A stretch of 64,000 bases of DNA from Erythrobacter litoralis (GTDB lineage Bacteria; Pseudomonadota; Alphaproteobacteria; Sphingomonadales; Sphingomonadaceae): the NCBI RefSeq assembly GCF_029760855.1, contig NZ_SOSI01000002.1, forward strand, positions 496,001-560,000, written 5' to 3'. Both the position numbers and the translations under genes were made by a program. Positions 2,552-62,915 of the stretch are shown here, in pieces. How positions within the stretch are numbered: position 1 is the first letter of the stretch; each line of letters opens with the position of its first letter. A model generated the notes under the pieces. That model was given only the letters and a program-made list of their open reading frames with translations, did not search any database and was not told the DNA's origin.

Positions 2552-3220
2552 ATGAGCAAGACTGCCACGATCCCTGATCAGGATGCGCTGCGCCGGGTGG
2601 GCGCCAAGGTCCGCGAGCGGCTGGAAAGCGATCCCGATATCTACAAGGTGCCGACCAAGAAGGCGGAAATCTTCGCCCTTCCGGACTTCCTCAGCCCCGA
2701 CGAATGCCGCCGTTTTATCACCATGATCGACGTGGTGGCCCGGCCGAGCGAATTGCATCGCACCGCCTACATCGAGAAGTTCCGCACATCCTATTCCGGC
2801 AATTTCGACCCGCACGATCCGTTCGTAAAATCGATTAGCCGGAGGATCGACGATTGCTTGGGTATGAACCCGCTATGCGGCGAGAACATCCAAGGCCAAC
2901 GATACCTGCCCGGCCAGGAGTTCAAGCCGCACAACGACTGGTTCTACACTGATCAGGAATACTGGAAGGACGAACGCAAGCGTGGCGGCCAACGCTGCTG
3001 GACGGCGATGGCGTTTCTCAACGTGGTCGAAGAAGGCGGGCATACGCACTTCACCGAAGTGGGCGCCTCGATCGAGCCGAAGCCGGGCGTGTTGCTGATC
3101 TGGAACAATGCGAAACCCGACGGCACGCCGAACATCGATACGAAACATGCAGGCACACCCGTCATCAAGGGATCAAAATACGTGCTGACCAAGTGGTATC
3201 GCACGCGCAAGCATCATTGA
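2552..3220 (+). CDS. 2OG-Fe(II) oxygenase, prolyl 4-hydroxylase-like
   Basis: The 222-residue protein has the double-stranded beta-helix iron site of the P4H-type 2-oxoglutarate dioxygenases: H127-N-D129 in FKPHNDWF, distal H199 in DTKHAG, and a Lys (about K209 in IKGSKY) expected to bind 2-oxoglutarate. FLSPDECRRFI near residue 46 is the usual start of the domain. Such enzymes hydroxylate prolyl or other side chains; the substrate here is unknown. An open frame extends about 600 nt upstream, but it is antisense to cytochrome b561 and homology-like sequence begins only at this ATG. The 3' end overlaps the convergent kinase gene by 7 nt. Confidence 0.88.
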   Translation: MSKTATIPDQDALRRVGAKVRERLESDPDIYKVPTKKAEIFALPDFLSPDECRRFITMIDVVARPSELHRTAYIEKFRTSYSGNFDPHDPFVKSISRRIDDCLGMNPLCGENIQGQRYLPGQEFKPHNDWFYTDQEYWKDERKRGGQRCWTAMAFLNVVEEGGHTHFTEVGASIEPKPGVLLIWNNAKPDGTPNIDTKHAGTPVIKGSKYVLTKWYRTRKHH

Positions 3221-4329
3221 GGCGTCCGATGCGCGTCAGGTAATGGTAACCGGATCTCCGCGCGGAAACCGGCTTCGTCGAAATACTGGTTCAAGGTCCC
3301 GCCGTGTGGCTGGAGAATACCCAGCATCAAACGCGACCCGTTACCGGTCGGCGTCACCGAAGCCAATTCATCGGCATCCGGCTTTTCGCCGTCTTCCAGC
3401 CAATGGATAACGATCTCGTCATTCTGGTGTGACCAATCGAGACTGACCGTACCCCGGGCCCCCGCTAGCGAACCGTATTTCATCGCATTTGTCGCCAATT
3501 CGTGCAGGGTCAGCCCGACCGGTGTGACGAGCGACCGGGGTAGCGCAACTTCATCTCCGACGAACCTTATCGCCTCGCGCTCTTCCCGCTGATAGGGTTG
3601 CATGATCGTTTGCGCGAGTTCCTTTAAGTGGGCCGGCTCGCCAGCCCGGCCTCCTGCTGCGATCGAGGCAGTATGCGCTTTGCTCAAAGCGCGGATACGA
3701 GCTTTCAGCTTCTCGGCGAAAATCTTGGCGTCTGTCTCACCGCGAGAGGTAATCGTGATCATCGCTGAAAGAACCGAAAACAGGTTCTGGGTACGGTGCT
3801 GTAATTCCTGCGCGATAATTTCCTGCCGGATCTGCTCTTCCCGGGCTTCGAGAAGCTCGGTAACGTCCCATTGGGAACCGTAAAAATAGGCAAGCTCGCC
3901 GTTATCTCCGAAAATCGGACCGATATGCAGGGCGTTCCAGAAAACGGATCCATCCTTACGGTAATTTTGAACGTCGACGACGATCGTTTCTTCCGCTTCG
4001 ATCGCTCGATGCATTCGCGCAACCGTTTCGGGCGACGTATCGGGCCCCTGTAAGAAACGACAATTGCGGCCGATGCTTTCTTCGCGCGAATAGCCGGTAA
4101 GCCGAACGAATGCCTCGTTCACATAAACGATCGGGCAGTCTTCTTCGAACGGATCGGCTACTACAAGCGCCATCCGGGTCTGTTCGATTGCCTGAATGAA
4201 CAGACCGGTCGGATCGATCTGCAACTCTTCCGGTCTGGCGTTCGGCCCGCTGTTTACCGTTCGGTTACCGATCGGTTCTCCTGCCTGATCCCCTGTATTG
4301 TGCGGCGATGCCCCGTCATCGTCCGTCAT
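3214..4329 (-). CDS. LOV-domain blue-light sensor histidine kinase, HWE type
   Basis: The 371-residue soluble protein joins a LOV photosensor to a kinase. Residues about 40-160 form the LOV domain, with the flavin-cysteinyl adduct motif GRNCRFLQG (reactive cysteine C90). A short helix then leads to the dimerisation segment EIIAQELQHRTQN with phospho-acceptor H178. The HWE/HisKA_2-type ATPase domain follows, with HELATNAMKYGSL as N box and VIHWLEDG carrying the signature Trp. This is the architecture and approximate length of the Erythrobacter litoralis LOV-HK proteins, which autophosphorylate on blue light. There is no membrane segment and no adjacent response regulator, so the partner is encoded elsewhere. 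It lies 18 nt behind the LysRS gene in the same direction. Confidence 0.93.
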   Translation of the reverse strand: MTDDDGASPHNTGDQAGEPIGNRTVNSGPNARPEELQIDPTGLFIQAIEQTRMALVVADPFEEDCPIVYVNEAFVRLTGYSREESIGRNCRFLQGPDTSPETVARMHRAIEAEETIVVDVQNYRKDGSVFWNALHIGPIFGDNGELAYFYGSQWDVTELLEAREEQIRQEIIAQELQHRTQNLFSVLSAMITITSRGETDAKIFAEKLKARIRALSKAHTASIAAGGRAGEPAHLKELAQTIMQPYQREEREAIRFVGDEVALPRSLVTPVGLTLHELATNAMKYGSLAGARGTVSLDWSHQNDEIVIHWLEDGEKPDADELASVTPTGNGSRLMLGILQPHGGTLNQYFDEAGFRAEIRLPLPDAHRTPQ

Positions 4330-60315: not shown

Positions 60316-61094
60316 GCAGACGGGTTGCGGGAAAGCTGGCGCTTGTCACCGGCGCGGCGCAGGGCCTCGGCGCAGCGCACGCTACGCTGCTGGCCCGCGA
60401 AGGGGCGCGCGTCGTGTGCACCGACGTGAACGGAGAGGGCGCCAAGGGCACGGCCGCACGCATCGTCGAGCAATTCGGTGCGGGGACGGCGGTTGGTGCA
60501 CGGCACGACGTCACCGATCCGGAAGCCTGGGAACGCGTCGTGGCGCTCGCAAAGGATGAAATCGGTGGACTGAACGTGCTGGTCAACAATGCCGGAATCG
60601 GCGTCGGCGGCACTATCGAGACTTGCGACTTCGACGACTGGAGGCGGTGCTTCTCGGTCAATGTCGATTCCATCTTTCATGGCTGTCAGAAGGCATTGCC
60701 CCTGATGCGCGAGCATGCGCCGGGATCGATCGTCAACATCTCCAGCATCGCCGGGCTGATCGCCAGCGATACCATGCCCGCCTATAACGCAAGTAAGGCG
60801 GCGGTCTGGATGCTGACCAAGTCGATCGCGCTCCATTGTGCGAAGAACCGGATGGATATCCGCTGCAACTCGGTTCACCCGACCTTCGTCGATACGCCGA
60901 TCCTCGACGGGACGGCGCGCAATCACAATATCGACAAGAACGTATTGCTGGAAAAGCTGGCCCGTCAGATTCCACTGAAAAAGGTCGGCGAGCCGGACGA
61001 TATCGCCAATGCGGTGCTCTATCTCGCGAGCGACGAAAGCAAGTTCATGACCGGGGCGGAGTTGAAGCTCGACGGCGGTATCTCGGCCATGTGA
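60312..61094 (+). CDS. Short-chain dehydrogenase/reductase
   Basis: The 260-residue enzyme has VTGAAQGLGAAHATLLAREGA as cofactor site, NNAG, ISSIAGL (catalytic Ser) and YNASKAAV. The Asp after VVCT (VCTDVNG) favours NAD. It resembles glucose or 3-alpha-hydroxysteroid dehydrogenases; substrate unknown. It overlaps the NUDIX gene as ATGA. Confidence 0.9.
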   Translation: MSRRVAGKLALVTGAAQGLGAAHATLLAREGARVVCTDVNGEGAKGTAARIVEQFGAGTAVGARHDVTDPEAWERVVALAKDEIGGLNVLVNNAGIGVGGTIETCDFDDWRRCFSVNVDSIFHGCQKALPLMREHAPGSIVNISSIAGLIASDTMPAYNASKAAVWMLTKSIALHCAKNRMDIRCNSVHPTFVDTPILDGTARNHNIDKNVLLEKLARQIPLKKVGEPDDIANAVLYLASDESKFMTGAELKLDGGISAM

Positions 61095-61124
61095 GGGCAG
61101 GCGAGGCTGCTCGGCCCCGCCCGC

Positions 61125-61346
61125 TCAATCGGCGATCAGCCAGATCGCGAGGTAGATTAGCAGCAGGCTGCCGAACCCGATCAGCGTGCCGAGGACGAAG
61201 ACGATGCGGATCATCGTCACGTCCAATCCGAAATAGTCCGAAATGCCGGCACACACGCCGCCCAACTTCCCGTTTCGCTTATCGAGCCGGAACTTGCGGG
61301 ACTTGCTCGGCGTCGTTTCGCGGTCGCGGAATTTGATGTCGCTCAT
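61125..61346 (-). CDS. pspC: PspC-domain protein
   Basis: The 73-residue membrane protein has the PspC domain: FRLDKRNGKLGGVCAGISDYFGLDVTMIRIVFVL, then a second helix (LIGFGSLLLIYLAIWLIAD). PspC is part of the membrane phage-shock response; pspA/pspF genes are not adjacent. Its ATG overlaps the stop of the upstream 39-residue gene as ATGA. Confidence 0.9.
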   Translation of the reverse strand: MSDIKFRDRETTPSKSRKFRLDKRNGKLGGVCAGISDYFGLDVTMIRIVFVLGTLIGFGSLLLIYLAIWLIAD

Positions 61347-61462
61347 GCCAGGGCTCCGGGGGAATAGGCGGGAAGGATCGCAATCGCCATGATTGCGACG
61401 GTGAACGTAAGAGAGAACGCGGCGGCGAACAGTTTGTTGCCATGATCGCTAAGTTTGAACAT
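61343..61462 (-). CDS. 39-residue hydrophobic micro-protein, copy 2
   Basis: The 39-residue product has a basic polar start (MFKLSDHGNKL), one hydrophobic stretch (FAAAFSLTFTVAIMAIAILP) and a short end (AYSPGALA). It is about 40% identical to the neighbouring 39-residue product over its full length (16 of 39 positions by eye). An AGAAAGG site precedes the ATG at 61462, and its stop overlaps pspC. It is too short for most gene callers. Confidence 0.75.
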   Translation of the reverse strand: MFKLSDHGNKLFAAAFSLTFTVAIMAIAILPAYSPGALA

Positions 61463-61490
61463 CGATCTTACCTTTCTTTCTGTAGATAGC

Positions 61491-61610
61491 TCAGGCGATG
61501 AGGCCGGCGGGGCTGGCAGGTACAATCGTGATGGCCATGCACATGGCGGAGACGGTCAAAGCGAATACGGCGGCGATGGCTTTGCTGGCGAAGAAGCTGT
61601 TGGTTTTCAT
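61491..61610 (-). CDS. 39-residue hydrophobic micro-protein, copy 1
   Basis: The 39-residue product reads MKTNSFFASKA, then hydrophobic IAAVFALTVSAMCMAITIVP and ASPAGLIA. It is the same length as the next product and shares its Ala-Phe-Leu-Thr core, the Met-Ala-Ile-x-Ile turn and the Pro-Ala ending, so the pair is a tandem duplication. An AAGGGA site precedes the ATG at 61610. It heads the minus-strand set with copy 2 and pspC. Confidence 0.75.
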   Translation of the reverse strand: MKTNSFFASKAIAAVFALTVSAMCMAITIVPASPAGLIA

Positions 61611-61829
61611 AGTGATAATCCCTTCAAGTTCGTTTCCGTTCGACCATTCGAGCGGATACAAACGTACCTGCAAAGGGTGTGCCAAACTTTCAAACCGCCG
61701 GATTTAAGCCGTTCCGGTTTCGCGCGGGAGTTGTAGTTTCGTTCACCTTCCCGAAAGATTGGTAAAAATTCCCAAATATTGAAATTCGCTATTTCGATGG
61801 AAGCGGGAAAGGTCACCCGTTAGGCGCAG

Positions 61830-62915
61830 ATGTCTATGCTGGATCGCATCGCCCTGACCCGATTTCGCAATCATGCGGAGACGTCGTTGACGGGAACCGG
61901 CCGGTTCAATCTTCTTGTCGGAGAGAATGGCGCAGGCAAGACCAACATTCTCGAAGCCCTCAGCATGCTCGCGCCCGGTCGGGGCCTGCGCCGAGCTGCA
62001 ATCGCCGAGATGACAGGGACGATGGGCGATGGCGGCTTCGCTGTCGGGGCCGACCTCCTTGCCTCGGATGGGGACGCCACGCGCCTCGGTTCCTATGTAG
62101 AACCCGCCCAGCCCGGGCGGCGCAAGGTGCGTATCAACGCCGCGGAGACGAGCGCGACGCAGCTCGGCGAATGGCTCGCGATAACTTGGCTGACCCCGGC
62201 GATGGACGGTCTCTTCACCGGACCCGCTGCCGACCGCCGCCGCTTCGTCGACCGCATGGCGCTGGCGCTCGATCCGCGCCATGCTGCCCATGCTGCGCGC
62301 TACGAAGCGGCGCTGCGCGAACGCAACCGCCTGCTCGCCGACGATCGCGTACCCGACACGACATGGCTCGACGGGATCGAGGCGCAAATGGCCGAACACG
62401 GGGGCTTACTTATGGAAGGCCGCGCGAACCTCGTCGATACCGTGATGGCGCGGATCGCCGCCATGCCCGCCGAGCCCTTCGCCCGCCCCGCTTTGACCTA
62501 CGTGCCGGGCGGACCGAGCAACGCGGAAAACCTGTCGCAGACTTTGTTCGACAATCGCCGGCAGGATCGCGTGGCGCAGCGCACGCTTGCCGGCCCCCAC
62601 CGCGACGAGCTCGACGTGGTCCATGCCGCCAAGCGCGTGCCTGCAGCCCAAAGCTCGACCGGGGAGCAGAAGGCCATGCTGGTCGCCATCACCCTCGCCC
62701 ATGCCGCCCTCGCAGCGCAGGGGCGCCCCGGCATCCTCCTGCTGGACGAGGTCGCTGCACATCTCGATCCGGTCCGCCGCGCCGCCCTGTTCGAACAGCT
62801 CGCCGCGAGCGGCGCGCAAGTTTGGATGACCGGCACCGAGCCCTCGCCCTTCTCCAGCATCGTGGACGAAGCGGCCGTGTGGCGGATTGCCGACGGATCG
62901 GCGATCCGCGCCTAG
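61830..62915 (+). CDS. recF: RecF
   Basis: The 361-residue SMC-like ATPase repairs gapped DNA. FNLLVGENGAGKTNILEALSML has the Walker A; AAQSSTGEQKAMLVAI is the ABC-type signature region and ILLLDEVAAHLDPVRRAALFE the Walker B. The ATG at 61830 is natural. Its 3' end overlaps the convergent esterase gene by 4 nt. It is not in the dnaA-dnaN-recF arrangement here. Confidence 0.95.
   Translation: MSMLDRIALTRFRNHAETSLTGTGRFNLLVGENGAGKTNILEALSMLAPGRGLRRAAIAEMTGTMGDGGFAVGADLLASDGDATRLGSYVEPAQPGRRKVRINAAETSATQLGEWLAITWLTPAMDGLFTGPAADRRRFVDRMALALDPRHAAHAARYEAALRERNRLLADDRVPDTTWLDGIEAQMAEHGGLLMEGRANLVDTVMARIAAMPAEPFARPALTYVPGGPSNAENLSQTLFDNRRQDRVAQRTLAGPHRDELDVVHAAKRVPAAQSSTGEQKAMLVAITLAHAALAAQGRPGILLLDEVAAHLDPVRRAALFEQLAASGAQVWMTGTEPSPFSSIVDEAAVWRIADGSAIRA

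Follow-up and report, generated by a model that had tools for sequence, protein, structure and literature searches.

The phage-shock (Psp) system is a textbook envelope-stress system, and one of its components, the small membrane protein PspG, has a sigma-54 promoter. In E. coli and Yersinia, the PspG gene stands apart from the main psp operon and is under PspF control, and the orphan pspG is the only other known PspF target of E. coli (excerpts of PMC9239133). The same excerpts describe PspG and PspD as small Psp members that are poorly understood and narrowly distributed. YohP is likewise small, hydrophobic and stress-induced, and is linked to the Psp response (excerpts of PMC12719787).

This work describes two micro-proteins, A and B, encoded upstream of a short pspC gene in a 64,000-nucleotide stretch of Erythrobacter litoralis DNA (hereafter the window). 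Like PspG, A and B are encoded apart from pspABC and have their own promoter, with presumed PspF control. They differ from PspG in being shorter than the 64 positions of its model, in occurring in one to three tandem copies, in being coupled to a PspC-domain gene and, in class-wide draws, in matching strongly only within the sphingomonads. Neither A nor B matched the PspG model TIGR02975 up to E 10. YohP resembles them by description and differs from them in control. The sphingomonad family seems to possess a second operon of PspF type, with products below the usual gene-calling size.

The locus lies on the minus strand (61125-61776) in the order A, B, short pspC. Micro-protein A (MKTNSFFASKAIAAVFALTVSAMCMAITIVPASPAGLIA; 39 aa plus stop) occupies 61491-61610 and is preceded by a ribosome-site-like stretch with AAGGG (61611-61628). 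After a gap of 28 nt, micro-protein B (MFKLSDHGNKLFAAAFSLTFTVAIMAIAILPAYSPGALA; 39 aa plus stop) follows at 61343-61462, with AAAGG in the stretch before it (61463-61480), and its stop codon lies within the ATGA that starts pspC. The third gene, preceded by the ribosome-site-like stretch GGAG, encodes a PspC-domain protein of 73 aa (61125-61346). The regulatory region is bounded by a divergent gene on the plus strand (61830-62915), presumably recF-like to judge from its sequence. The sequence-only reading had announced twin tandem frames of equal length and about 40% identity, each with its own ribosome site, the second overlapping pspC by ATGA. All of this stands: both frames, their ribosome-site-like stretches and the overlap are where that reading placed them, BLASTP aligns A and B with 14/32 identical residues (44%), and the A and B families align over their full length in a profile comparison (98.9% probability).

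A and B are real conserved genes. Upstream of the short PspC, the two frames are found together in 60/60 genomes of the genus (the 60 B include the window's own, added by hand). A starts with ATG in 59/60 and with TTG in one, B with ATG in all 60, and the ATGA overlap with pspC is found at 59/60 loci; the exception is L113, where the PspC start is unclear. Pairwise dN/dS, from pairs that are non-independent, has a median of 0.38 in A (1024 pairs), 0.29 in B (493 pairs) and 0.25 in pspC (668 pairs), against 1.1-1.7 in the other two frames of the same DNA. Frame conservation in relatives and selection on the peptides, the two checks proposed along with the earlier reading, thus both point to genes, and chance frames or an artefact are ruled out.

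Known families do not account for the two peptides. No match was found for A or B in Pfam or PHROGs, and none at cut-off in NCBIfam, where a match of A to PraA far below threshold (12.6 versus 150 bits, E 0.069) is regarded as chance. In a Pfam scan of four relatives and one pspA-head-like protein, one had sub-threshold matches only (DUF2776, 14.9 versus 26.1 bits; Neurensin), and a plasmid search with one B-type peptide gave no match. No description of the A and B proteins was found in the open-access literature, searched by title and start of the abstract. In the main text of the Psp-system surveys PMC9239133 and PMC11237479, as far as excerpted, no sphingomonad passage and no small-protein passage was found.

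Both peptides are predicted to be single helices. Their 19-residue hydropathy maxima are 2.41 (A) and 2.33 (B). AlphaFold, run without alignment, models B alone as one long helix (residues 4-29, mean pLDDT 80.5) and A without its first Met as a helix from 4 to 28 plus a short terminal helical turn (mean 73.8). Lys or Arg precedes the hydrophobic core in 50/60 A and 60/60 B, and no charged residue follows it in any of the 60 A and 60 B. Such a distribution fits an N-terminus inside; on hydropathy and charge, A and B probably have this topology, with a short, uncharged, Pro-containing tail outside.

The short PspC is a true PspC-domain protein, scoring 67.7 bits against PF04024 (gathering score 25). 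It differs from the PspC of TIGR02978 in having only 73 aa, in missing the C-terminal half and in lying outside a pspABC operon: it reaches 60.7 bits against a cut-off of 104 and covers positions 2-59 of 121. No solved structure was found for it by sequence up to E 1. The genome of the window has two PspC loci. The canonical operon lies on another contig beside pspF, where PspF, PspA, PspB and a 125-aa PspC all score above their NCBIfam cut-offs (PspF versus TIGR02974: 466.6 bits, cut-off 443.55), and the same genome encodes sigma-54 (PF04552, 219.1 bits). The neighbouring gene, called pspC in the sequence-only reading, is not the pspC of the envelope-stress operon: it encodes a second, 73-aa PspC, and A and B are not neighbours of the canonical gene.

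The link to the stress response comes from the promoter. Upstream of A, TTTGGCACACCCTTTGCA (61669-61686, minus strand) has the -24/-12 form of sigma-54 promoters. Such a site is present in 59/60 genus genomes, at -318 to -355 from pspC and with ≤ 1 mismatch; in the 60th, the contig is cut there. The strict pattern TTGGCACRNNNNTTGCA, with no mismatch allowed, has two matches in the 2.97-Mb genome of the window, namely the promoter of A and that of pspA, a uniqueness that applies to this genome only. In relatives, the pspA promoter mostly ends in TTGCT, so the strict pattern misses it. A looser pattern gave one to three sites in 59/60 genus genomes and none in one, and the second site in relatives often lies near a glutaredoxin-like gene, not pspA. 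No sigma-70 promoter was found between 61000 and 61900.

A second conserved feature, TTTGGGAATTTTTACCAATCTTTCGG (61751-61776, minus strand), is a candidate PspF enhancer. It has the form TTGG-N9-CCAA, with CCAA beginning exactly 78 bp before the -24 box, in 55/58 genus promoters. A matrix was built from the A promoters of the genus and p was derived from 300 dinucleotide shuffles, which test the element against composition and not against all regulatory DNA. On the pspA promoters of the genus, the matrix gave p ≤ 0.01 in 24/26 (the two failing are L232 and L147), with the best match at -77 to -79 in 23, at -58 in two (L228 and L148) and at -46 in one. Outside this set, 59 further micro-protein promoters all have their best match at -76 to -79, 54 of them with p ≤ 0.01; a 60th, L213, was left out for having too little upstream DNA. 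Five of the 59 fail the test, including L182 (p 0.08) and L195 (p 0.11). Among 20 more divergent loci, the element lies at -75 to -81 in 18 and reaches p ≤ 0.01 in 16.

The element also separates these promoters from others in the same genome. Of the 13 sigma-54-like sites of the window's genome (≤ 1 mismatch), scored with the sequence of this genome left out of the matrix, only the promoters of A (28.4) and pspA (0.5) are above zero, the latter low at 0.5 bits. Two sites before what we take to be GlnB/GlnK-like genes, which another activator is expected to control, score -43 and -45 at the same place. The three tested sites near glutaredoxin-like genes have no upstream element (p 0.08 to 0.53) and were therefore excluded from the regulon count. 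These sigma-54-like sites (L144 around 4789, L146 around 1876, and L145) lie about 10 kb from the psp operon and point against the gene, perhaps marking a small RNA or a chance match. A sigma-54-like site at L131 (G000:C1 around 10286, minus strand) has a weak element at exactly -78 (score -6.4), before a gene for a 422-aa membrane protein that is presumably a polysaccharide flippase; this gene is a possible third regulon member.

Although the element sits between two divergent genes at the locus of the window, it is kept at pspA and at two stand-alone pairs (L200 and L202) with different neighbours. The promoters of A and pspA carry both the -24/-12 box and the element at the same spacing. 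PspF is the likely binding protein, since pspF adjoins the pspA promoter and the element is common to both promoters. With the switch elements of the main phage-shock operon in front of them, A and B look like unrecognised parts of the stress response. The sigma-54 promoter, the upstream element and a third small protein before pspA go beyond the sequence-only reading.

In the family, the B profile matched in 77/347 genomes and 24/96 genera. The 77 include a weak and probably spurious match of G256 inside a 754-codon frame, whose locus (L203) gave no row, so the genus of G256 may be spurious in the genus count. All 77 genomes are among the 326/347 with PspF, a co-occurrence that carries little weight, as PspF is found in 94% of the family sample. 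Besides the genus loci, 62 further places were read out, several sharing a genus or genome and one (L202) from the window's own genus; L203 and L004 gave no row. A sigma-54 site (≤ 2 mismatches, at a median of -73 relative to the first start codon) is present at 60/62. The other two are L201, which lies at a contig end, and L196, a real miss. One micro-protein is encoded at 27 of the places, two at 26 and three at nine. The last frame ends in an ATGA or GTGA overlap at 50/62, and PspC lies downstream at 55/62, counting L176, where the PspC frame starts 238 nt after the last detected micro-protein. The locus of Aurantiacibacter luteus (L004), read by hand, has the same plan.

Pairs without a neighbouring PspC were found at L182, L183, L200 and L202. 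The first two, from two genomes of one genus, have the sigma-54 site and the pair and no PspC match at E ≤ 1e-10. Extra micro-protein genes without an adjoining PspC occur at L200 (G179), L202 (G009), and L195 and L196 (both G138). At L200 and at L202 the genes form a pair served by its own sigma-54 site and by an upstream element (p ≤ 0.01); the site is poor at L195 and missing at L196. Partnering a neighbouring PspC can therefore not be the sole role of the micro-proteins, and a complex with PspC is not general.

The profile underestimates the spread of this gene plan. Twenty loci were hand-picked, non-randomly, among the stronger matches to the short PspC that had no profile match, and each of the 20 carries a sigma-54 site together with a small hydrophobic frame. 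The frame ends in the overlap in 19/20; at L257 it ends 23 nt short. Among 385 genomes drawn class-wide, strong matches to the micro-protein profile were found in 3/5 genomes of the family, and the short-PspC profile matched in the five family genomes and in five outside the family (E 3e-13 to 8e-13). Four weak micro-protein matches outside the family (E 2e-4 to 8e-4) lie in frames of 424-553 codons in three cases and 110 in one, and are regarded as chance by the match data alone. In a control of 59 PspC loci of other bacteria, no micro-protein match was better than E 0.36.

We consider it fairly probable that A, B and the short pspC form a second PspF/sigma-54 phage-shock operon, placed like E. 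coli pspG and making single-helix membrane effectors together with a short PspC. The evidence throughout is sequence and the genomes compared are related; PspF binding, induction, topology, complex and membrane effect are what we infer from them. Membrane damage would free PspF. Bound to TTGG..CCAA, some 78 bp ahead of the -24 box, PspF would drive the sigma-54 polymerase, so that A, B and the short PspC would be transcribed alongside the main pspA operon. A and B would then be made as single-pass peptides of the inner membrane, probably with the N-terminus inside, and may act as membrane effectors, most likely as a helix bundle with each other and the co-translated short PspC. This bundle might steady or seal the stressed membrane. 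Joint action of A, B and PspC is suggested by the start-stop overlap, and the copies without PspC indicate that the peptides can act with no PspC next to them. The earlier proposal of single-helix membrane peptides that work with PspC in envelope stress is thus kept in part: the predicted single helices, the tie to PspC and the regulon promoter speak for it, whereas the pspC concerned is not that of the envelope-stress operon and some pairs have no neighbouring PspC.

Other functions of the two frames have to be weighed against this operon of membrane effectors. The start-stop overlap, so frequent both in the genus and at the further places, could mean that translation of A and B serves chiefly to bring ribosomes onto pspC by coupling, or to set when PspC is made, with little done by the peptides as such; the frame at the head of the pspA operon, which likewise ends in ATGA or GTGA where printed, would fit. 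We judge such leader frames quite unlikely, given that A overlaps nothing, that the copy number varies from one to three, that selection on both peptides is near that on pspC itself and that L200 and L202, without an adjoining PspC, keep promoter and element. No known RNA element was found either (Rfam, 60900-62000, gathering scores). Export is a further possible function: A26 and A28 are invariant or nearly so in both A and B, and a loose A-x-A-like pattern is present in 60/60 A, 60/60 B, 101/102 at other places and 15/16 pspA-head proteins. The hydrophobic stretch could be a signal peptide that signal peptidase I cleaves at the A-x-A, freeing the 11-residue PASPxG tail to act as a signal in the periplasm. 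Only 11/20 divergent members have the pattern, however, and by eye the N-terminal stretch has few positive charges, which makes export unlikely.

The small size and hydrophobicity of A and B would also suit membrane-active stress peptides like E. coli YohP, which would lower membrane potential or fluidity and silence metabolism while the short PspC protects the cell. A Psp-controlled peptide that dissipates the potential would, by inference, create a positive feedback loop, and a protective PspC is not adjacent in the pairs without one; we hold this to be very improbable. The operon of membrane effectors remains the reading that we prefer. It offers a defined promoter and gene list for study, and its loci provide a natural test for cooperation between PspC-domain proteins and single-helix peptides.

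The main operon has a small protein at its head as well. A hydrophobic protein of 50-51 aa is encoded between the pspA promoter and pspA in all 26 genus genomes that were read. It has no detectable homology with A (hhalign probability 1.7%), which makes this a likeness of plan and leaves common descent unsupported. Its counterpart in Zymomonas mobilis would be ZMO1062, numbered just before pspA and annotated as 'hypothetical' or 'putative pspD' (excerpts of PMC3495753 and PMC8237431), whose expression is reported to rise on xylose along with that of pspA, pspB and pspC (an excerpt of PMC8645129). This correspondence, by gene position and expression and not by sequence, is a lead only and concerns the pspA-head protein, not A or B.

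Tentatively, and with considerable doubt, these proteins may be grouped as a sphingomonad phage-shock effector class not yet described. Single-helix micro-proteins would head both PspF/sigma-54 operons (50-51 aa before pspA, 35-52 aa before the short PspC), with extra stand-alone pairs under the same promoter plan in some genomes (L200 and L202), and the micro-protein, not PspC, would be the constant effector. A periplasmic protease, or else PspC, might recognise their conserved nonpolar C-terminus, so that peptide turnover would be a readout of the membrane state. The last residue is Ala in 57/60 A, 53/60 B, 87/102 at other places, 20/20 divergent members and 15/16 pspA-head proteins.

Some further details of the canonical operon were observed. 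At L094 (G000:C2), the pspA frame (1309-2184) is extended in frame by about 64 residues ahead of the usual start, the PspA model beginning at residue 65, and similar extensions are found at L146 and L147. Two more genes (2882-3196 and 3193-3573) follow the canonical pspC at L094. The product of the first has a PspB match below the NCBIfam cut-off (26.8 versus 51.7 bits), and the canonical operon seems to hold PspB-like repeats.
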